Source: an uncultured bacterium (lineage in GTDB: Bacteria > Verrucomicrobiota > Kiritimatiellia > CAIKKV01 > CAIJXV01). From it: 64,000 nt of DNA. The position numbers and the translations under genes are program-made. This document shows, one piece after another, positions 49,297-64,000 of this stretch. Under the pieces are notes generated by a model. It was not told the origin of the DNA, did no database searches, and saw nothing but the letters and a program-made list of their open reading frames with translations. Positions within the stretch are counted from its first letter, which is position 1. Each line of letters begins with the position of its first letter. Location: contig CAIJXV010000062.1 of the NCBI GenBank assembly GCA_903824675.1, positions 1-64,000 of the forward strand, given 5' to 3'.

Positions 49297-49367
49297 CACT
49301 CCTATTATGAATGTGTCGGTCCCCATTATTCGGCAATGGCCGCTGTGTTTTTTTACCTGATTCCGTC

Positions 49368-50639
49368 ATGATCTCCCTTATTGTCTTCGAAATTACAGCT
49401 CTCCTTGTGCTTCTGGCTCTTTCGGCGTTCTTTTCTAGCGCCGAAACGGCCTTTTTCTCTCTGAATCCAGTTCATATCCATCGAATTCGCCGTTCCAAAC
49501 CCGGAATCGCTCGCGCCATCGAAACGCTCCTTGCCACCCCCACCCATCTCCTCTCCACCCTTTTGATCGGCAACACCTTGGTCAATGTCGTCGTTGCCAG
49601 CGTGGCCTTTGTCATTGCAGACCAGATTTGGCCCGGCTATGGCGCCCCCATTGCCATCCCCTCCATGACCCTCCTTCTCATCGTCTTTGGTGAAGTCCTC
49701 CCCAAGCGCCTTGCGGTACGTCATCCCGAACCCATCGCCTCCTATTATTTGCGCCCCATCGGTTTTTTTATCACCCTCCTCACGCCCCTGCGTCGCCTCT
49801 TGGAATGGATTACCCAGTCCCTCGAAATCTCGTTTAAACCCCGACGGCGAGCCTTGTCCGGCGAGGATCTGATGACGGTTGTCGATGTCAGTCATACCGA
49901 AGGCGTGCTCAACCCCGAGGAACGCGCCATGGTCGACGGAATCCTCCGCCTCGAAAACATCCAGGCCCGCGATGTGATGACCCCCCGCGTCGACCTCATC
50001 GGGATCGATATCAACGGCAACCCCGATGAATACGTGGCGCTGGTCCGCAAATACCATTTCCATTACCTGCCGGTCTTTCGCGATTCCCTGGACCACATTG
50101 AAGGTTTTCTCGACGTCCCTAAATTCCTCCTGGCCCCCCTACCCGATCTCCAGGCCGCCATGCTCCCCCATTTCTATGTTCCCGATACCGCGACGCTCGA
50201 TGCGCTGCTGACCACCTTCCATCAGCAAAACCGGCGACTGGCCATCGTGATTGACGAATACGGCGGCACCGCCGGCATGATCACCCGCGGCGACATTCTC
50301 GATGAAATTGCCGAATCCGTCAGCAATGAGTTTGGCGGCTCCAATCCCGACATTCAACCCCAGGGGGTCAATCGCTGGATCGTCAATGGCAACACCAGTA
50401 TCGAAGAAGTGAATTACGAATTAGACCTGCATCTCGAAGCCGAGGGAGTTGATCGAATCGCCGGATGGTTCACCTACCACACCGAGCATGTGCCCCGCCT
50501 CAACGAAGTCCTCGAAATCCAATCCTGCCGAGCAACGGCCAAAGAGGTCAAAAAGCACCGGATCACTTACCTGTTGATCGAGCGACTCGAACCCAGTGAT
50601 TCTCCCGCCGTCGATGAGGAACCGGGGGCCGAACTATGA
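49368..50639 (+). CDS. CNNM/CorC-type CBS-domain membrane protein (hemolysin C-like), paralog 1
   Basis: 423 residues: a DUF21 membrane domain (about 1-150, with FFSSAETAFFSLN and TLLIGNTLVNVVVASVAF), a CBS pair (about 205-330, ARDVMTPRVDLIGID and VIDEYGGTAGMITRGDILDEI) and a CorC/HlyC domain (about 350-410). It is implicated in magnesium or cobalt efflux. Start at ATG 49368; an in-frame GTG at 49311 would add a poorly formed leader. The stop overlaps the ATG of a shorter paralog. Confidence 0.92.
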   Translation: MISLIVFEITALLVLLALSAFFSSAETAFFSLNPVHIHRIRRSKPGIARAIETLLATPTHLLSTLLIGNTLVNVVVASVAFVIADQIWPGYGAPIAIPSMTLLLIVFGEVLPKRLAVRHPEPIASYYLRPIGFFITLLTPLRRLLEWITQSLEISFKPRRRALSGEDLMTVVDVSHTEGVLNPEERAMVDGILRLENIQARDVMTPRVDLIGIDINGNPDEYVALVRKYHFHYLPVFRDSLDHIEGFLDVPKFLLAPLPDLQAAMLPHFYVPDTATLDALLTTFHQQNRRLAIVIDEYGGTAGMITRGDILDEIAESVSNEFGGSNPDIQPQGVNRWIVNGNTSIEEVNYELDLHLEAEGVDRIAGWFTYHTEHVPRLNEVLEIQSCRATAKEVKKHRITYLLIERLEPSDSPAVDEEPGAEL

Positions 50640-51607
50640 CCCTCCTCATCATCCTTCTCTTCGCCACGTGTTTCATCGGCACCGCCTTCTTCGCCGGTAT
50701 CGAAACCGGCGTCATCTCCTGCCATCGCATCCGTCTTCGGGCACTGGCGGAAAAAGGCGTGCAACACCTGGCCATCCTGGAGTTTTTCCTGACCAACCCG
50801 GACCGCCTCCTGGGAACCACTCTGATCGGAACCAATATCTGTACCGTCACCCTTTCCGTACTCGCGGCCCGGTTCTGTTCCGATCTACTGGGAACCTGGG
50901 GCGAAGCGGTGTCCGACGTCGTGATGACCATTCTCATCCTGGTCTTTTGCGAATACATACCCAAGGCCTGGTTCCAAAGCGACCCCATCGAAAGATCCCG
51001 TCCCTTCGCGACAACCCTCTGGCTCACCGCCCTTATCCTGCGCCCCTTCGCCTATTTGATCACGAAAATCACCAACCTTTTTCTCCCCTCTGCTCTCGAT
51101 CAACCCAGCACCTCCCGGCCCCTCATTTCCCGCGATGAAATAGATCTCCTCGCCAAGGAAAGCGCCGATCGCGGAATCCTTTCGCCCCGGCAGCGCATCA
51201 TGATTCACCGCGTAGTTGAACTCACCGGCAAAATGGCCGCCCAGGTGATGATTCCCCGCGACCGCATAGTCGTCGTCCAACACTCCAGCCCGATTCGCGA
51301 TTTTCTCGATCTCACCCAACAGTCCCACTTTACCCGCCTTCCCGTTTGGGACGAGTCCACCCGGAAATTCGTCGGTATTGCCAATCTCTTTGATGTCCTG
51401 GCCCTCGATCCGACCCTGCATGACCGGCCGATCGCCGATTTCATGCGCCCCCCCCAGTTCATCAATGCGTCGACCCCGCTGACTGAAATCTTCCCCCGCA
51501 TGCGTTCTTCGCGCCAGCCCATGGGCCTCGTCATCAATCCCCAAGCCGAGGTCGTCGGCGTTTTAACCACTGAAGACATCCTCAACCACATCGTAGGGAC
51601 CGCTTAA
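50636..51607 (+). CDS. CNNM/CorC-type CBS-domain membrane protein, paralog 2 (no CorC domain)
   Basis: 323 residues. The DUF21 membrane part has FFAGIETGVISCHRIRLRALAEKG and TTLIGTNICTVTLSV, followed by a CBS pair (about 200-320: AAQVMIPRDRIVVVQ and INPQAEVVGVLTTEDIL). It lacks the C-terminal CorC/HlyC domain of paralog 1. ATGA overlap with the preceding gene and TAATG overlap with the next make a coupled run; two adjacent unequal paralogs may form a heterodimer. Confidence 0.9.
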   Translation: MTLLIILLFATCFIGTAFFAGIETGVISCHRIRLRALAEKGVQHLAILEFFLTNPDRLLGTTLIGTNICTVTLSVLAARFCSDLLGTWGEAVSDVVMTILILVFCEYIPKAWFQSDPIERSRPFATTLWLTALILRPFAYLITKITNLFLPSALDQPSTSRPLISRDEIDLLAKESADRGILSPRQRIMIHRVVELTGKMAAQVMIPRDRIVVVQHSSPIRDFLDLTQQSHFTRLPVWDESTRKFVGIANLFDVLALDPTLHDRPIADFMRPPQFINASTPLTEIFPRMRSSRQPMGLVINPQAEVVGVLTTEDILNHIVGTA

Positions 51608-55272: not shown

Positions 55273-56028
55273 CTATAACCGGCCGAGTGCGCGAAGCAAA
55301 CCATCTAGAATCGTAATGGGATGCGGCGGACAGCCGGGAATATATACATCGACCGGCACCACACTTGAGGCCCCATTCCGGACTTCGGCTTGATCCACAT
55401 AGGGCCCCCCCGAAATGGCACAGGCACCCACGGCAATGACCAGCTTCGGGTCGGGTACGGCGGCGTAAGTTTTTTGAAGCGCCAATTCCATGTTCCGGGT
55501 CACCGGCCCGGTGATGAGCAATCCGTCGGCATGCCGTGGCGCGGCAACAAATTGAATGCCAAACCGGCCTAAATCAAACACCACGGTCGTCAACACGTTG
55601 CAATCCGCTTCGCAGGCATTACATCCCCCCGCGCTGACTTCTCTCAACTTCAATGACCGGCCGAATAACTTTTGCATCTTCGCATCCAGGGCCGCCTTCA
55701 AAACCGTCTCGCCGCGGCCGAGCACCAGGGCCTGACGATCCCGGGCGGCCAACTGGTGATCCTTGGAGAACGTAATTGCGCCCTGGGGCAGGGCTTGTTC
55801 GCATTCCCCGCAAAAGAGACAGCGCCCGAGATCAAGCGTTACCTGGCCCGATTGATAGGCCAAGGCCGACACGGGACAGCAGGAGACGCGAGTTTCACAG
55901 GAGGGATCCACACAGGCCTGATTGATCACGGGGAGCCCGCGAAACCGTTTAGGCAGAACCGGCGGTTTTTTAGGAAAACCGATCGTTCGATACCCTTGCT
56001 GTATTCTGGCGGTAATAATGCCTAACAT
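55273..56028 (-). CDS. Hyf/Ehr small subunit: ferredoxin fused to NuoB-like subunit
   Basis: 251 residues starting MLGIITARIQQGYRTIGFP, with GAGGT just upstream. The N-terminal ferredoxin-like part has C39, C44, C50, C51 and C70-x2-C73-x2-C76, but the expected last Cys of the second motif is L80. The NuoB/HyfI part has the proximal cluster ligands C136, C139 (GGCNACEADC), C203 (GACAIS) and C233 (PGCPPHP). It carries electrons to or from the large subunit. It is last in the minus-strand operon, 7 bases after the large-subunit gene. Confidence 0.9.
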   Translation of the reverse strand: MLGIITARIQQGYRTIGFPKKPPVLPKRFRGLPVINQACVDPSCETRVSCCPVSALAYQSGQVTLDLGRCLFCGECEQALPQGAITFSKDHQLAARDRQALVLGRGETVLKAALDAKMQKLFGRSLKLREVSAGGCNACEADCNVLTTVVFDLGRFGIQFVAAPRHADGLLITGPVTRNMELALQKTYAAVPDPKLVIAVGACAISGGPYVDQAEVRNGASSVVPVDVYIPGCPPHPITILDGLLRALGRL

Positions 56029-56035
56029 CTGAACC

Positions 56036-57568
56036 TCACAAATCGTGGCCACAGTAAGAAAGCCCGAAACTCTTGTTGCACAGCGGAAAATCAGAAATCT
56101 GTTGATTCCGCATCGACATCGACAACCCCATCCAATTATGGAAGGAGGGATCCACCACCTTGTAGGTCGCAAACCGGCCGGCCGCATCGGTCATCCCCAC
56201 ATGGCAGATCTCACCCCGCCAGCCTTCCACCAGCGACACCACAAAGGAATTGGGGGCGGCGGGTTCAGGCACGTTTCGGATCGCCCCACCCGTCAGCATT
56301 TTCAATTGTTCCCGCACAAATTCGCCGGATCGTTGTATTTCCAACCAGCGGACATAGGCGCGCTCAAACACATCGCCCGTCTGGCCGGTCGAGACCGGAA
56401 TCTGGGAAAACCGGTAAATGCCATAAGGAAAATCATGTCGGATATCGCATTCCATCCCAGAGGCGCGGGCCGCCGGACCCACCAGCCCGATTTCCATCGC
56501 CGTCTCCTTCGTCACCCGGCCGGTATCCTCAAAACGGCTCATGACCGAGGGCGAATCCCACAATAGATTTACGGCATTGGTCACATCGCGCAGGGTATTG
56601 TCCATGCGTTGCAACAGGTCTGCAAGATCCGCCGCATCGACATCATACGCGACCCCTCCGGGGCGCACCAAACCGCGACCAAACCGATTTCCACACAAAA
56701 TGGCCGTCATATTAAGAAAATCACCGCGCAGGCGACCGCAATAGGCCGAGGTCGGCAAAAATCCAATATCCCCTGCCAGCGCCCCCAAGTCACCCGTGTG
56801 GTTGGCCAGGCGTTCCAGTTCCTGCGCCACTCCGCGCAAGCCCTGGGCTTGCGAGGGCACCTTGCAGGCCGACAACCCTTCCAGAACCCGGCAATACGCC
56901 ACCGTGTGGCCGATCGTGGTATCGCCCGCCAGGGTCTCGATCACGTGAAGGGTCCGTTTGTCCGGCCCTCCCCGCAACATCCGCTCGACCCCGCGATGTT
57001 GATAGCCCAACGAAATCTCCAGATGAAAGACTTGTTCGCCATGACATTGAAAGCGGAAATGGCCCGGCTCGATGATCCCGGCATGAACCGGACCCACGGC
57101 CACTTCATGGACCTCTTCGCCTTCTACGCGATAAAAATCAGTCACCCCGATTTGGGGCGGTTCGTTCTCCGCCCGACCCCAGGCATCGTGCCCCGGCCGC
57201 AGGGATTTCACAAACCGGACCGGCTTAAGCCAGGGATGTCCTTCCGGACGCAGTCCAAATTGCTCGGCAATTTCCCGCTCAAAAAGATGAACCTGGGGGC
57301 AGGCGGACGTCAGGGATGGAAAGCTTTCCCCGGTGATCCGGGTGCGTGCGACACGAAAGTTGCCATCATCGCGACAGGCCACTACCGCCACCAGTTCCAC
57401 CCCGTCCCCCGCATCCGAAAGTCGGCCGAAAAAGGCTGACACATGGGCTTCATCCGCCACCGCGTCGATCAGAGAACTCCGAAACACCTCCCCATCGAGG
57501 CAGGGAATCTCCGCCTGCGGATAACGCACTCCATTATGAATCGGCAACCATTTTAAAATGGAGATCAT
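56036..57568 (-). CDS. Hyf/Ehr large subunit (NuoC-NuoD fusion) lacking [NiFe] cysteines
   Basis: 510 residues fusing NuoC-like (about 1-130, HLFEREIAEQFGLRPEGHPW) and NuoD/HyfG-like (about 150-510) parts. At the first metal motif, where [NiFe] hydrogenases have CGxCxxxH, it reads A214-G-D-T217-T-I-G-H221: both cysteines replaced, histidine kept. At the C-terminus DPCxxC is replaced by DFPLCNKSFGLSYCGHDL, where C497 and C506 are nine apart. Without the four ligands no NiFe centre can form, as in Ehr complexes. The first codon overlaps the preceding gene (4 bases). Confidence 0.93.
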   Translation of the reverse strand: MISILKWLPIHNGVRYPQAEIPCLDGEVFRSSLIDAVADEAHVSAFFGRLSDAGDGVELVAVVACRDDGNFRVARTRITGESFPSLTSACPQVHLFEREIAEQFGLRPEGHPWLKPVRFVKSLRPGHDAWGRAENEPPQIGVTDFYRVEGEEVHEVAVGPVHAGIIEPGHFRFQCHGEQVFHLEISLGYQHRGVERMLRGGPDKRTLHVIETLAGDTTIGHTVAYCRVLEGLSACKVPSQAQGLRGVAQELERLANHTGDLGALAGDIGFLPTSAYCGRLRGDFLNMTAILCGNRFGRGLVRPGGVAYDVDAADLADLLQRMDNTLRDVTNAVNLLWDSPSVMSRFEDTGRVTKETAMEIGLVGPAARASGMECDIRHDFPYGIYRFSQIPVSTGQTGDVFERAYVRWLEIQRSGEFVREQLKMLTGGAIRNVPEPAAPNSFVVSLVEGWRGEICHVGMTDAAGRFATYKVVDPSFHNWMGLSMSMRNQQISDFPLCNKSFGLSYCGHDL

Positions 57569-59001
57569 GGATGTCCTCCCTCAAGATAGGCCACGGCCTG
57601 ATGGAGTTGGGTTTCCAGCGGAGACGGAATCATCACCCCCAACGACAAGGCCAACACAAAAAAGAGAATGATGGGAATCACCAACTGGGGCCGATCCCGA
57701 TAGGGCGTCGCCAGGGCTTTGGCCGAGGGGGTGCCCTGCACCACCCGCAACACCGTTGCGCCCATCCCGATGAACACAATGGCCAGCAAGCTCAGAAACA
57801 ATCCGGCGATCCAATATTTACCGGCATGAATCGTGCCGATCAGGATGGTGAATTCACTGATAAACGGCCCACCGGGAGGAGATCCGGTCACCATCAAAAA
57901 TCCAGCCAGGAAAAGCGGACCGGAAATCGGCAACCGTCGAATCGCACCGCTCACCTCATCGGTGTTTTTTCGCTCATAGGCCCGGTGGATATTTCCCGCG
58001 GATAAAAACAACACGCCTTTCGTCAAGCCGTTGGTGATCATATGCAGCAGGGCGCCAAAAGTGGCCAACCCGCCAATCCCGATGCCCAGCACGAGAATGC
58101 CCATATGCTCGACACTCGAATAGGCCAGCATCCGTTTAAAATCCCGTTGCCGGATCACAAATACAGCCGCGACCGCCATGGACAGGAGCCCCATGAAAAT
58201 CAGGATTTCCCGGGCAAATGCGGCCTCCGGCGCATTGTGACAAATTTGAAAAAAACGGAGAATGGCCAGAAACGCGCAACTCGTCACCCCCGTGGCCAGC
58301 AAGGCCCCCACTAATCCCGGGGCTTCGCCATAGGCATCCGGTTTCCAGGTATGCATCGGAGCCAACCCCATCTTGGTCCCATACCCCACCAGCAACAACA
58401 CAAATGCGGCATGCAACCACGGTGCGGAAAGGCGGGGCGCCAGATGGACCAGATCATCCAACAGCAGGGTGGGCTCCAGCCCCTCGCGAATGGATGAATA
58501 CGCCAGAAAGAAGGTGCCCAGCAAGGCCAGGGCAATCCCGACGGATCCAATCAGAAGATATTTCCAGGTTGCCTCCAGCGACCGGGAGTTATGGTTGAAA
58601 AACAACAGGGGGGCGCTCGTCAAGGTGGTGGCCTCAATGGCCACCCACATCAATCCGAGATGATGGGACAGAATCACCAGAGACATCATGCCTAACATGC
58701 CCATCAAACAGGCGCAAAACACCCGATTCGATCGATCCGGGCGGAGCGCCAGGTAGGCGGGGGCATATAATGAACAGATCCAAAACATCAGGCTCACAAA
58801 CCCCAAAACCAAAGTGCTGAGCGGATCCAGAACCAGCCATCCCCCCAAGGCCGACACCGGCTCGCCGATCAACGCAACCGCCGTCAAACCCAGGTGCGTC
58901 AGTCCCCCGATCGGAACCAGCCAGGGGCGCCAGCGATTGGACGGTACGACCAGCGTCACGGCCGCAAACAGCAACGGGACGAGAAACAATAACCACGCCA
59001 T
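57565..59001 (-). CDS. Hyf/Ehr NuoN/HyfF-like proton-pumping subunit
   Basis: 478 residues, about 13 TM segments, antiporter-like fold. Marks are YLLIGSVGIALALLGTFFLAY, KMGLAPMHTWKPDAYGEAPGLVGALLATGVT (the conserved Lys in the broken TM7 region), MLAYSSVEHMGILVLG and TNGLTKGVLFLSAGNIHRAY. It would move protons or sodium ions across the inner membrane. Its stop overlaps the large-subunit start; HyfE lies 3 bases upstream. Confidence 0.93.
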   Translation of the reverse strand: MAWLLFLVPLLFAAVTLVVPSNRWRPWLVPIGGLTHLGLTAVALIGEPVSALGGWLVLDPLSTLVLGFVSLMFWICSLYAPAYLALRPDRSNRVFCACLMGMLGMMSLVILSHHLGLMWVAIEATTLTSAPLLFFNHNSRSLEATWKYLLIGSVGIALALLGTFFLAYSSIREGLEPTLLLDDLVHLAPRLSAPWLHAAFVLLLVGYGTKMGLAPMHTWKPDAYGEAPGLVGALLATGVTSCAFLAILRFFQICHNAPEAAFAREILIFMGLLSMAVAAVFVIRQRDFKRMLAYSSVEHMGILVLGIGIGGLATFGALLHMITNGLTKGVLFLSAGNIHRAYERKNTDEVSGAIRRLPISGPLFLAGFLMVTGSPPGGPFISEFTILIGTIHAGKYWIAGLFLSLLAIVFIGMGATVLRVVQGTPSAKALATPYRDRPQLVIPIILFFVLALSLGVMIPSPLETQLHQAVAYLEGGHP

Positions 59002-59004
59002 GTA

Positions 59005-59646
59005 TTACTCCTTTAATTCGGACAGCATCCGGGTACTCACGGAAGAGAATTCCCGGCTGATTTTATGAATGATGATGCCCATGACAAAGATCGCGACAAA
59101 CAAGTCCAACAACACCCCCAATTCAACCAGGAACGGGATCGCCTCCATCAGGAGCATGCCGAAAATAAACACCCCATTTTCCAAAATCAGATAACCGACG
59201 ACCTGCGTGATCGCCTTGGTGCGGGTGGTCAGCATGAGAAACCCGGTCAATACCGTGGACAACGCGGCCGGCACGATCAAGGATCCCATGTCCGACCGGG
59301 CAATCGGCAGGGTTTGCGAGAAAAGCAGCGCCAACCCGGTTCCCACCGCCCCCAGAAAGAGCGAGGCGATAAACCCGACAAGGGGTTCCACTTCACGCCG
59401 GATCACCACGTCACGGATCGCATCAAAAAGCATACGGGGGATCACGACGCCTTTCAGCAGAATGGTGACCAGCGCCATCAGGGCCACCCAAACCATCAAG
59501 GATCCATGCGCCAGGGCGATCAGAATACCCAGCAATATCCCCTGCAACGCCACGGCTTGAATCAAGGTGCGCATCCGGCTCGCACCCAACACCACAAAGT
59601 TCAGCAGAAGAACCAGAACCAGAATTGGATCGATAAATTTATTCAT
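59005..59646 (-). CDS. Hyf/Ehr NuoK/HyfE-like subunit
   Basis: 213 residues with about six to seven TM segments. NuoK-like features include ASRMRTLIQAVALQGILLGIL and TTRTKAITQVVGYLILENGVFIFG, where the buried Glu of LILEN matches the NuoK/HyfE charge. Three bases separate it from both neighbours. It links the antiporter subunits to the membrane arm. Confidence 0.9.
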   Translation of the reverse strand: MNKFIDPILVLVLLLNFVVLGASRMRTLIQAVALQGILLGILIALAHGSLMVWVALMALVTILLKGVVIPRMLFDAIRDVVIRREVEPLVGFIASLFLGAVGTGLALLFSQTLPIARSDMGSLIVPAALSTVLTGFLMLTTRTKAITQVVGYLILENGVFIFGMLLMEAIPFLVELGVLLDLFVAIFVMGIIIHKISREFSSVSTRMLSELKE

Positions 59647-59649
59647 GTA

Positions 59650-60558
59650 TTACCTCAACAATAGGATCACCCCAAAAGCCGACAGCAAACAGGCCGCCAC
59701 CAGAAAGGTCGGCACAAAAACCATTCGGAACCGCGCCATCGCAGACTCCACCACCCCAATGACCACCGCCAAAGCCAGCATTCCCAAGATAAACAATCCC
59801 CAATCCGCCCAGGCCGAGGGGGCCGCAAACGGAGCCACCACGCGCAACAAAACCGACCCCATGACAAACAGTTTCATCGCCGCGCCGTACTGGATCAGTC
59901 CGAGGGCTGGCCCACTGTGATCCAAGACCATCACCTCGTGAATCATGGTCAATTCCAGATGCGTGTTCGGATCGTCAAAAGGAATCCGGGAATTTTCAAC
60001 CAGCAGAATCACAAACAGGCTGGCCGCCACCAAAACCAATGCCGGAGCCTCCACGCCTGTCCCCAGGGGACAGGTCCCACTCAGCATGGTCGTCAAGGAC
60101 AGGGACGCCGACAGCTTGGCCAGGACCAGAAAACAGAAAAACAGAGCCGGTTCCGCCAGGCAGGAAAAGGTCACTTCCCGCGCCGCTCCCATTCCTTCAA
60201 ATGCCGACCCGGTGTCCAACGCCGCCGAGGCCGTAAAAAACCGGCCCAATGCGAATAAATAGGCAAACAGAATCATGTCGCCGGCAAACGAGACCGGCGC
60301 GCCATGCCCGCCAAACGGAATCAACATGCCGGCCAGCAACGTCGTGGCCAACCCCACCACCGGCCCGGCTCGAAAAACCCAGGTGGTCGTCGTACTGAAT
60401 ACGGTTCCCTTTTGAAAGAGCCGGATCAGGTCGTAATAGGGCTGCAACAGGGGCGGCCCCTTCCGTCCGCCGAAAAGAGCTTTGGTCTTGCCAATCACCC
60501 CCAGCAAAAGGGGAGGCACCAGCAACAGGATGAAAATGTGCATGAAAACTTGACTCAT
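59650..60558 (-). CDS. Hyf/Ehr NuoH/HyfC-like subunit
   Basis: 302 residues, about eight TM helices. Diagnostic segments are GRKGPPLLQPYYDLIRLFQKG, ARE-containing GMGAAREVTFSCLAEPAL and ENSRIPFDDPNTHLELTMIHEVMVLDHSGP, the acid-rich loop facing the NuoD-like subunit in NuoH/HycD proteins. It joins the soluble and membrane arms. 15 bases downstream of the HyfB-like gene. Confidence 0.94.
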   Translation of the reverse strand: MSQVFMHIFILLLVPPLLLGVIGKTKALFGGRKGPPLLQPYYDLIRLFQKGTVFSTTTTWVFRAGPVVGLATTLLAGMLIPFGGHGAPVSFAGDMILFAYLFALGRFFTASAALDTGSAFEGMGAAREVTFSCLAEPALFFCFLVLAKLSASLSLTTMLSGTCPLGTGVEAPALVLVAASLFVILLVENSRIPFDDPNTHLELTMIHEVMVLDHSGPALGLIQYGAAMKLFVMGSVLLRVVAPFAAPSAWADWGLFILGMLALAVVIGVVESAMARFRMVFVPTFLVAACLLSAFGVILLLR

Positions 60559-60573
60559 AACGCCTTCCTTAAC

Positions 60574-62520
60574 CTACTTCCACAGCAACAATAGAATCAG
60601 AAAAATCACGATGTACGCCAGGTACGCGTGAATGTTCCCCCCTTGAAAATACCGGAACGCGGTGGTGATGCGGACCCCGACCTGATAAAGCGGCCTTAAG
60701 ATCTCATCCAACACCACATCCATGACGTGACTGCGAAAATGGGCCGGGCCCGGGAAGACCGTCTGCTTGCCCGAGGCATGGACCTGAGGCCGCAAAACCC
60801 ACACGAAGAAAACGCCCAACATTTGCGCAAAGGACGAGGCCGTGTACTGCATGTGAGGCGACGGTGCTGCATAACCGCAATCCCACGTGCCCGCCGCCCC
60901 AACCCGGCTCCGGCGCAATCGAAGCCCCCATAGGGCTCCGATCGCCAGCAATAGCCCGACCAGGGTAAGCCCGACCACACTGATCCAGCCCATGGGGGCC
61001 ATCATTGCCAGGGAGGGCAATTGACCGTCGTACGAAGGAATCCAAACGGCAACCCCTTGTTGCAACAGGGGACAGACCAGTCGGGGAAACAGACCGATGA
61101 CGAGACAACAGAGGGCCAAGGCGAACATCGGGCCGGTTATGGCTCGCCCGGACTCATGAGCCTCACGGGCGGAGTCCGACCGGGCGGACCCCAGAAAGAT
61201 CGCCCCGAACGCCTTGACAAAACAGGCGACGGCCAAGGCCCCAATCATGGCCAACAGGGCGGCGGAGAAGGCTGCCACCCCCCACGAGGGTTCCGTGCCC
61301 AACCCCAGCGTCCGGAACAGCCCCAGATAGATCAGGAGTTCACTCACAAACCCATTCAGGGGGGGCAATCCGCAAATGGCCACCGCCCCGATGGCAAAAA
61401 ACAAAGCGGTTAAAGGCATCGCCGCCGCCAGCCCCCCCAATTTATCGATGGACCGGGTATGCGTCGAATGAACGACCGACCCTGCGCTCAGAAACAATAG
61501 CGACTTGAATAATCCATGATTCCAAACGTGCAATAAGGCCCCCGCCAATCCCAACACGATCCACGTCGACACCTGCAACGACCGACCCACCATCGCCAGC
61601 CCCAGCCCCATGACGATGATGCCGATATTCTCAATGCTGTGGTAGGCCAACAGCCGCTTCAGATCATGCTGCCCCAAAGCAAACACCACCCCCAGGATCC
61701 CGGATACCGTGCCCAGCACCAACAGCAAGCCCCCCCACCAGACCGGCGGATCGGGCAACCATGACACCATGCGCGCCAGTCCATAAATACCGATTTTAAT
61801 CAGCACCCCGGACATCAGCGCCGACACATGACTCGGAGCAGCGGCATGGGCGCCCGGCAACCAGACATGAAACGGCATCAAGCCTGCCTTGATCCCAAAC
61901 GCCACGAGCAGCAGGATAAATATGACCGTGGCCATCGTGGGCGTCACCGCCCCTGGGGGCAAAGGGCCCAGCGCAAACGTACCGGTCACCAGATGCCAGA
62001 TTGCAAACAAGGCAAAAAGACAGAGGGTTGAAAAATGAGTCGAGACAAGATAGAGAATCCCCGCATCCCGCACCTCCCGTTCATGGTCCTCGGTGGTAAC
62101 CAGGAAAAACGCCCCGAGCGCCATGACTTCCCAGAAAAAAAGGAACAGTATCGAATTCGCGGACACCGCTATCCCGGCCAATCCGGCGGTAACCAAACCA
62201 TAGAACAAACGCAATTTCCGACCATTCTCCGGATACTTCATCTGGGGCCAATATTCCAACCCGTAAATAGAGCCGAGGGCTGATACCCAGAAGATGGGGA
62301 TCAGGAAAATGGCCGCCAGCGCATCCAGCCGGATAAACGCTATCGACTGGGTCGGCGCCCAGAATGCGGCGAGGGCGACTGCCATGCCGAGCGCAGACCC
62401 CAGCACGGAAAGGCCCAACGCCAGTCGCTGTCCTCCCGCCGTATCGCGTCGCATAAACAGCCCCGGCACACCACTGAAGGCATGACACGCGATTCCCGCT
62501 ATGACCAGCCATTCATTCAT
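60574..62520 (-). CDS. Hyf/Ehr NuoL/HyfB-like antiporter subunit 2
   Basis: 648 residues, about 15 TM segments. Antiporter marks: LFFWEVMALGAFFLVTTEDHE (Glu of TM5), GIKAGLMPFHVWLPGAHAAAPSHVSALMSGVLIKIGIYG split by loops (TM7-TM8 Lys), RLLAYHSIENIGIIVMGLG and WNHGLFKSLLFLSAGSVVHSTHTR. Started at the ATG at 62520, which lies 8 bases inside the 3' end of its paralog; the longer frame adds 37 Cys-rich residues not in the family. Confidence 0.93.
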   Translation of the reverse strand: MNEWLVIAGIACHAFSGVPGLFMRRDTAGGQRLALGLSVLGSALGMAVALAAFWAPTQSIAFIRLDALAAIFLIPIFWVSALGSIYGLEYWPQMKYPENGRKLRLFYGLVTAGLAGIAVSANSILFLFFWEVMALGAFFLVTTEDHEREVRDAGILYLVSTHFSTLCLFALFAIWHLVTGTFALGPLPPGAVTPTMATVIFILLLVAFGIKAGLMPFHVWLPGAHAAAPSHVSALMSGVLIKIGIYGLARMVSWLPDPPVWWGGLLLVLGTVSGILGVVFALGQHDLKRLLAYHSIENIGIIVMGLGLAMVGRSLQVSTWIVLGLAGALLHVWNHGLFKSLLFLSAGSVVHSTHTRSIDKLGGLAAAMPLTALFFAIGAVAICGLPPLNGFVSELLIYLGLFRTLGLGTEPSWGVAAFSAALLAMIGALAVACFVKAFGAIFLGSARSDSAREAHESGRAITGPMFALALCCLVIGLFPRLVCPLLQQGVAVWIPSYDGQLPSLAMMAPMGWISVVGLTLVGLLLAIGALWGLRLRRSRVGAAGTWDCGYAAPSPHMQYTASSFAQMLGVFFVWVLRPQVHASGKQTVFPGPAHFRSHVMDVVLDEILRPLYQVGVRITTAFRYFQGGNIHAYLAYIVIFLILLLLWK

Positions 62521-64000
62521 AATGTAACCAGTGTCGAACCACCTGCCAGGCAAAAGCAAACAACAACACAACGACAAAATACAGCATATAAAACTGAATC
62601 TTCCCCTGCTGTAACCAGCGCATCCTCGCAAAATGGCCGGCGAGCCAGGTAAACATCGGTTGATATACCACGCGACTCACCGTATCGGGATAACTGGTGG
62701 TCATTTTGCCCGCCACCGGAAATACCGCTTGCGTTGCCACGACGCGCATTTTCGGGCGAAAGGATCTTAAGAACAACCGCGAGACCATCATTTCGGAAAA
62801 AGACTGGCCGGTATATTGCATGCTCGACAACGGCGCCAGGTAGCCGCAACTCCAGGTGGAATCCTCCGCCACTCCCCCACGGCGTCGGGCCCGGATAGAA
62901 AAGAGGGCCACCAATCCCAGCAACGCCCAAATCACGGCATTCACCCCGCTCAGCACCGTCAAAGCGGAAGAATCCGTCATCGCCTGTTGAAGGGGTTCCA
63001 GGGAAAATCCAAAAACCTCATTAATCACACCCGCGAAAGACGTGACGAGCACACCCGGAAAAAGTGCCGTCAGGACACAGAGTCCGGCCAACACCGCCAG
63101 AGGGAGGGTCATCCAGCGCGAGGACTCATGTGCGTGGCGGGCTTCCTCACTGCGCGGCTCGCCCAAAAGCACGATGCCAACCCATCGCACGAAACACAAC
63201 AACGCCATGGCACCCACCAGCGCCAATACGCCCACGCCCAACAGCATCACGACACTCCCCCCGCCGGAAAACTCCAACCCCCCGTATAATAGCGCCATGT
63301 AAATCAACCATTCACTGACAAATCCATTCAAGGGGGGCAGGGCCGAAATGGCCACCGCGCCCAGCACGATCGCTCCGCCCGTGTGTGGCATGCGTTTCAT
63401 CAATCCGCCCAACCGCTCCATATCCCGTCCGCCGGCCCCATGCATCACCGACCCTGCCCCGAGAAACATCAGGCTTTTCATCAGGGAATGATTCCAAATA
63501 TGCAAAAAGGCTCCGGAAAAGCCCAATGCCGCAACGATCGGATGGTGCCCGGTCAAACCCCATATTCCAAGCCCGAGCGCCAGCACAATCAGCCCCATAT
63601 TTTCAATACTGGAGTAGGCCAGCGCTCGTTTCAGATCGCGTTGGCATAAGGCAAAGGAGATGCCCAGCACCGCGCCGGAAAACCCGATGACCACCAGCAT
63701 CGGGCCCCACCAGGCCGCGGGGGGCCCCAGAAATATCAGGACCCGAAGCAACCCATACAGTCCCAGCTTGATCATCACCCCGGACATCAGCGCCGACACA
63801 TGACTGGGAGCCGCCGGATGCGCCTCCGGCAACCAGACATGCAAAGGCACCAAGCCGGCCTTGGTCCCAAAACCGATCAGCGCCAGCAGAAAAATAACGG
63901 CACCGGCGATTGAGCCGGGGACTGGAAACGTATCGAAATCGAGGGAACCCGAGGCGCGGCCTAAAAGGAGAAACATCGCCAGCAAAAAGGCGGCGCCCAG
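62513..64000 (-). CDS. Hyf/Ehr NuoL/HyfB-like antiporter subunit 1 (5' end outside window)
   Basis: At least 495 codons, open to the window edge, so the N-terminus is missing. Paralog of the next gene: GFGTKAGLVPLHVWLPEAHPAAPSHVSALMSGVMIKLG, ALAYSSIENMGLIVLALGLG, WNHSLMKSLMFLGAGSVMHGAGGRDMERLGG and the same FVSEWLIY motif. Two HyfB-like subunits in one operon agree with a Hyf/Ehr arrangement with several antiporter modules. Confidence 0.9.
   Translation of the reverse strand: MGAAFLLAMFLLLGRASGSLDFDTFPVPGSIAGAVIFLLALIGFGTKAGLVPLHVWLPEAHPAAPSHVSALMSGVMIKLGLYGLLRVLIFLGPPAAWWGPMLVVIGFSGAVLGISFALCQRDLKRALAYSSIENMGLIVLALGLGIWGLTGHHPIVAALGFSGAFLHIWNHSLMKSLMFLGAGSVMHGAGGRDMERLGGLMKRMPHTGGAIVLGAVAISALPPLNGFVSEWLIYMALLYGGLEFSGGGSVVMLLGVGVLALVGAMALLCFVRWVGIVLLGEPRSEEARHAHESSRWMTLPLAVLAGLCVLTALFPGVLVTSFAGVINEVFGFSLEPLQQAMTDSSALTVLSGVNAVIWALLGLVALFSIRARRRGGVAEDSTWSCGYLAPLSSMQYTGQSFSEMMVSRLFLRSFRPKMRVVATQAVFPVAGKMTTSYPDTVSRVVYQPMFTWLAGHFARMRWLQQGKIQFYMLYFVVVLLFAFAWQVVRHWLHYE

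Follow-up and report, generated by a model that had tools for sequence, protein, structure and literature searches.

The window analysed here is the whole stretch of 64,000 nucleotides and corresponds to bases 1 to 64000 of contig C62 in a 4.24 Mb draft genome; the reading was extended to the contig end at 71327. On the minus strand, positions 55273-64000 hold seven open genes with Hyf-like homologies, tightly packed, the spacing between neighbours being about -8 to +16 bases. Pfam and NCBIfam searches gave concordant subunit assignments, and the features are as follows.

Contig 64530-65216, beyond the window: HTH_17-PTS_EIIA_2 regulator gene, 16 bases upstream of EhrA-1 (Pfam).
Contig 62513-64513 (window part 62513..64000), minus strand: EhrA-1, HyfB-like antiporter subunit (HyfB1), 666 aa (profile matches, proton-path residues).
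60574..62520, minus strand: EhrA-2, second HyfB-like antiporter subunit (HyfB2), 648 aa (Pfam/NCBIfam).
59650..60558, minus strand: EhrB, HyfC/NuoH-like membrane anchor, 302 aa (Pfam NADHdh PF00146; HyfC match).
59005..59646, minus strand: EhrC, HyfE-like membrane subunit, 213 aa (NCBIfam PRK11492; HyfE match).
57565..59001, minus strand: EhrD, HyfF-like antiporter subunit, 478 aa (Pfam/NCBIfam).
56036..57568, minus strand: EhrL, HyfG/NuoCD-like large subunit with replaced [NiFe] ligands, 510 aa (profiles, alignments, tree).
56036..56092, minus strand: C-terminal signature of EhrL, DFPLCNKSFGLSYCGHDL and stop, with Cys497 and Cys506, at the site of DPCxxC (alignment).
55273..56028, minus strand: EhrS, HyfH-HyfI fusion, 251 aa (NCBIfam; NuoI/HyfH match of the N-terminal domain).

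An earlier note on this DNA had described a tight operon of HyfI-, HyfG-, HyfF-, HyfE- and HyfC-like genes with two HyfB-like genes. The genes and their packing were recovered as described, and the HyfI-like gene was found to be a HyfH-HyfI fusion, comprising an N-terminal ferredoxin domain (NuoI/HyfH-like) followed by a NuoB-like domain with a CxxC proximal cluster; for this gene a start at 56028 was preferred over 56187. Reading upstream of position 64000, as had been proposed, placed the start of EhrA-1 at 64513 and the HTH-PTS EIIA regulator gene at the head of the operon, with unrelated genes beyond it on the contig. EhrA-1 and EhrA-2 share 39% identity. Scans for promoters and terminators yielded matches near chance level. 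Elsewhere in the window, positions 49311-51607 contain two adjoining CNNM/CBS (CorC/TlyC-type)-like transport genes, recognised by sequence alone.

The operon is predicted to encode an Ehr (Ech-hydrogenase-related) complex with seven subunits, of the type known from Geobacter, because its gene set equals that of the Ehr of Geobacter sulfurreducens (GSU0739-0745; EhrA-1, A-2, B, C, D, L and S) and its EhrL shares a clade with Geobacter and Geomonas (support 100/99), which bears out the earlier assignment to the Ehr type. The tree and the identity values used Geobacter/Geomonas sequences other than that of G. sulfurreducens; identity to Geobacter argillaceus EhrL is 60%. The large subunits of Ehr-like complexes all group together in the tree (100/99), and that of the window falls within a Geobacter-type subgroup (100/99). 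Both the Geobacter and the window complex have two HyfB/NuoL-like subunits and lack the [NiFe] motifs, and the outer ferredoxin cluster ligands of EhrS, lost in the window, are also lost in some Geobacter; EhrA-2, in contrast, lies inside the operon in the window and apart or divergent in several Geobacter loci (L080, L122). Compared with Hydrogenase-4/formate hydrogenlyase of E. coli (Hyf, Hyc), the operon has homologues of HyfB/C/E/F/G/H/I, but HyfA, HyfD, HyfJ and HyfR are missing, HyfH is fused to HyfI and there is no [NiFe]; HyfA, HyfD and a formate dehydrogenase partner, which would mark a Hyf/formate hydrogenlyase-2, were not found in the locus.

The founding papers on Ehr are reportedly Coppi 2005 and Marreiros 2013. 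Published accounts describe Ehr as lacking [NiFe] and as having an unknown function (PMC4378227, PMC6349859, PMC10284858, PMC12342949, PMC7304191), in agreement with the statement of the earlier note that related complexes are known and their reaction is not. The definition in PMC4378227 specifies a large subunit without RxCGxCxxxH and DPCxxCxxH/R, and EhrL of the window has AGDTTIGH and GLSYCGHDL instead.

Close homologues occur in 24 of the 57 other genomes of the host's class, and among named genomes at least 80 Ehr loci were detected, those listed covering Planctomycetota, Verrucomicrobiota, Geobacter/Geomonas, Acidobacteriota, Omnitrophota, Elusimicrobiota, Spirochaetota, Fibrobacterota and more; operon order is conserved across the loci compared, and a search of viral contigs found no Ehr. 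The Rhizobium/Methylocalor-type Ehr resembles the window in its ending of the NKS(F/V)NxSYSGHDL kind, its absent [NiFe] ligands and its HyfB-C-E-F-G-I set, and differs in having a single HyfB, an EhrS without the ferredoxin domain and Ser at the Cys506 position. Side-by-side pairs of different Ehr-type operons were seen in three unrelated lineages (L036, a Variovorax plasmid; L127; L042). In L042, a second, Hyf-like operon of genome G012 directly follows an Ehr operon. With the tree rooted at its midpoint, this second operon (L042 10705-18310, G012:C85) branches off first within the Ehr group as a whole, and its CGVC and CYSC/CYSCTDR motifs are intact. A first branch with all four nickel cysteines is consistent with descent of Ehr from a [NiFe] enzyme; the evidence is suggestive, and the operon may represent the ancestor type.

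In EhrL, the nickel-ligand positions are occupied by A214, T217, S504 and G507, the last two assigned by alignment to E. coli HycE. Ala214 and Thr217 in place of the first nickel cysteine pair, the retained H221 and the missing DPCxxC all stand as the earlier note had given them; the protein ends in NKSFGLSYCGHDL, and its last stretch follows DFPLCNKSFxLSYCGHDL. Among 100 relatives, a set that was picked by its ending and includes two duplicates, position 214 is A in 93, S in 6 and C in 1, and position 217 is T in 89, S in 8, A in 2 and V in 1. Since the replacements recur in these relatives, they are not the sequencing error whose possibility had been raised. The EhrL of L079 is intermediate in that its residue 214 is still Cys (CGDTTIGH).

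Strong conservation extends to the pocket residues G215, D216, H221, R451, D493, C497, S504, Y505, C506, G507 and D509, with Gly215, Asp216 and Arg451 invariant in the 100 relatives. Cys497 is present in 97 of these and replaced by Asn in three, its counts among named loci being skewed by the motif ISDFP[LI]CN with which these were sought. The 100/100 occurrence of Cys506 in the relative set is circular because the set was picked by its ending; a less biased count comes from alignment A1, in which 21 of the 22 class members have Cys506, and one relative in the class has Gly (G056). The two C-terminal cysteines, previously regarded as an added oddity, are instead hallmarks of the Geobacter-type subgroup. 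Other Ehr have Ser (Rhizobium, Methylocalor, the Variovorax second operon) or Ala (Allomeiothermus) at position 506, so Cys506 may not be catalytic. AlphaFold modelling of EhrL alone produced a confident core, with the pocket loops 141-190 and 486-510 below pLDDT 50, and no claim is therefore made on pocket geometry; with this model, Foldseek returned HycE of the E. coli formate hydrogenlyase as the nearest fold (7z0s, TM 0.82).

The conclusion that the complex cannot be a hydrogenase agrees with the replacement of all four ligands and passed an independent test based on maturation. HypD, on which assembly of the Fe(CN)2CO centre depends, is absent in 8 of the 25 Ehr-bearing genomes of the class (the host's own counted among the 25), including that of the nearest relative, whose EhrL is 83% identical, so Ehr would be independent of [NiFe] maturation and no hydrogenase. 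HypD of the host is accounted for by a separate Ech-type group 4 [NiFe] hydrogenase at L005 9734-14515 (G000:C31), with CGIC and DPCISCTER intact; the same motifs ruled out this locus as a complex I. Absence of a C-terminal extension from EhrL was dropped as evidence against nickel maturation and is not diagnostic, because the intact Ech of the host also ends without one. Ehr thus lacks the four Cys ligands of group 4 [NiFe] hydrogenases, is not accompanied by Hyp maturation in every genome, and must therefore use another donor or acceptor, as the earlier note had argued.

The clusters of EhrS provide information on the electron-carrier side. Here, only the inner [4Fe-4S] site is left in the ferredoxin domain, and the proximal [4Fe-4S] cluster looks fully ligated. 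Most EhrS (n=94) keep two ferredoxin clusters; in 14 of 94, window included, the first motif has lost its outer-cluster Cys, and the partner Cys in the second motif tends to go too (Fisher p=2.5e-6, uncorrected for common descent), in several lineages. The inner-cluster ligands are kept in 94/94, three apparent gaps being alignment shifts, and because they persist while the outer ligands get lost, the inner cluster would be the needed one. A small carrier that docks directly would account for this pattern more readily than a fixed dehydrogenase module. The host encodes PFOR, RnfC and three [FeFe]-hydrogenase-family genes, and from this gene content reduced ferredoxin is predicted to be made and used. 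Within the class, [FeFe] hydrogenase occurs in 21/25 Ehr versus 16/33 non-Ehr genomes (p=0.006; by family p=0.047) and RnfC in 9/25 versus 23/33 (p=0.016; by family p=0.16); at the family level these associations are weak, with [FeFe] barely holding and Rnf not. The ferredoxin link of Ehr is circumstantial. In the membrane arm, the proton-path positions TM5 Glu, TM7 Lys and TM12 Glu are retained in EhrA-1, EhrA-2 and EhrD alike, and three antiporter subunits are not unusual, because E. coli Hyf also has three (B, D, F).

The best reading is that Ehr acts as a ferredoxin-linked ion pump whose second substrate, not H2 and probably not quinone, reacts at the conserved altered pocket, a view that we hold at roughly an even chance. 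Its pump and non-hydrogenase parts are well supported by the gene and residue comparisons; the substrate part we infer.

The HTH-EIIA gene accompanies 67 of the 83 Ehr loci that show the gene or have at least 2 kb upstream, and the PH motif, with its phosphorylatable His, is kept in 56 of 59 well-scoring copies. Among PTS parts, HPr is encoded in 58/58 genomes of the class and EI in the host. When about 100 Ehr loci were screened for conserved partners, none emerged besides the EIIA gene, and otherwise only generic histidine kinases recurred. In E. coli, unphosphorylated PtsN inhibits a K+/H+ antiporter (PMC11808508), a precedent for EIIA action on ion transporters; papers linking EIIA with Ehr were not found in the partial literature searched. 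A second, divergent EIIA-like gene lies between the EhrA gene(s) and EhrB in L053, L111, L126, L127, L135, L136 and L140, from several Verrucomicrobiota and one Kapaibacterium.

Among the alternatives, a short complex I-like pump that would act as a ferredoxin (or other donor):quinone oxidoreductase is doubtful. Fold and subunits are common to Ehr and complex I (homologous NuoB/CD/H/K/L/M/N/I parts), and a menaquinone marker is present in 8/25 Ehr genomes of the class. However, the proximal motif of Ehr is CxxC as in hydrogenases rather than the adjacent CC of complex I, an NADH module (NuoE/F/G) is absent beside the operon, and the quinone residues of complex I are missing: Tyr87 of Thermus Nqo4 aligns with the invariant Gly215 of EhrL and His38 with Ile166, these positions being Gly and Ile throughout the relatives aligned. 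Complex I was not detectable in the host draft genome, since all four antiporter-family (Proton_antipo_M) genes belong to Ehr (three) or Ech (one) and only two 49-kDa-type genes exist. Neither MqnA/D nor MenD, marking both known menaquinone routes, rose above cut-off in the host, and both markers are absent in 17 of the 25 Ehr genomes (the host and 16 of 24 others), a manual count from two markers in draft genomes that is blind to an unfamiliar route or scavenging. Quinone is thus an unlikely partner in the window host. Geobacter has menaquinone, so Ehr could conceivably have a quinone role there.

Somewhat less probable is a reaction like that of MBS, the sulfane sulfur reductase of Pyrococcus furiosus: electrons from ferredoxin would reduce either polysulfide or some organic disulfide, and the site would be Cys497/Cys506 or the proximal cluster. 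MBS itself is an established case of a complex I-like pump that has no [NiFe] and carries two homologous pump subunits, and Ehr has two conserved cysteines close to the former nickel site. Nevertheless, the MBS motif that frees one proximal-cluster Fe is three residues shorter, a three-Cys form absent from the window EhrS, which has the hydrogenase-type CxxC spacing (GGCNACE); the Mrp-type distal module is absent from the Ehr operon, as are the leftover cysteines of MBS, the two of which are dispensable in MBS itself; and Cys497 is Asn in three relatives. Equally hard to favour is a redox-gated ion or pH regulator, whose membrane arm would work as an antiporter while its clusters served purely as sensors of the cellular redox state and turned over no net substrate. 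The EIIA regulator recalls the PtsN control of K+/H+ antiport (PMC11808508), and a pH role has been suggested for Methylacidiphilum (PMC6688271); the near-invariance of the pocket over many phyla, however, suggests a chemical substrate, and a bare sensor would have no obvious need of such a pocket.

A formate dehydrogenase-Ehr complex, proposed for Riflemargulisbacteria (PMC6349859) and hinted at for Geobacter (PMC7894505), is quite improbable. Ehr proteins do rise on formate in G. sulfurreducens, but no homologue of FdhF or NuoE/F/G was found in any of the roughly 100 Ehr loci, the majority of which include several kb of flanking sequence, and the EIIA gene is the only conserved neighbour. 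A non-functional remnant, as which Ehr of G. sulfurreducens has been classed for lack of [NiFe] (PMC13194489), is very improbable: hydrogenase activity is impossible and long-term electrode strains were mutated in two ehr genes, yet dN/dS of 0.04-0.11 for all eight genes against the nearest relative, an operon intact in many phyla and dozens of invariant residues argue against a dead complex, and Ehr proteins are made at levels that shift with growth condition. An unusual [NiFe] hydrogenase with replaced ligands deserves almost no credence, since the HycE fold match and the four cysteines of the earliest branch (G012, second operon) are set against replacement of every ligand position in the Ehr clade and 8/25 Ehr genomes without HypD.

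Ehr complexes were known already; added here are the evidence against candidate reactions, the pattern of the inner cluster and the link to the regulator. Under the preferred reading of a ferredoxin-linked pump, a low-potential one-electron carrier, most likely ferredoxin, would exchange electrons at the inner cluster of EhrS, and these would pass via the proximal cluster to the altered EhrL pocket, where a small substrate, not H2 and probably not quinone, would be reduced or, in reverse, oxidised. Through the phosphorylation state of the PTS, and hence the PEP/pyruvate balance, the HTH-EIIA protein could control expression of the operon or the activity of the complex. More tentatively, the pocket of Asp216, His221, Arg451 and Cys497/Cys506 might constitute a new kind of active site for a small non-H2, non-quinone substrate, fed by ferredoxin through the inner cluster and controlled by the PTS phosphorelay, which we consider possible though not probable.

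Ehr complexes are spread over many bacterial phyla. The host carries Ehr seemingly without complex I or a known quinone route, and relatives carry it without nickel-centre maturation; these absences remove one usual candidate and make a second unlikely. The question is thereby made testable: which redox step, not of H2 and probably not of quinone, drives the Ehr pump. The conserved EIIA link offers a handle on when cells use it.
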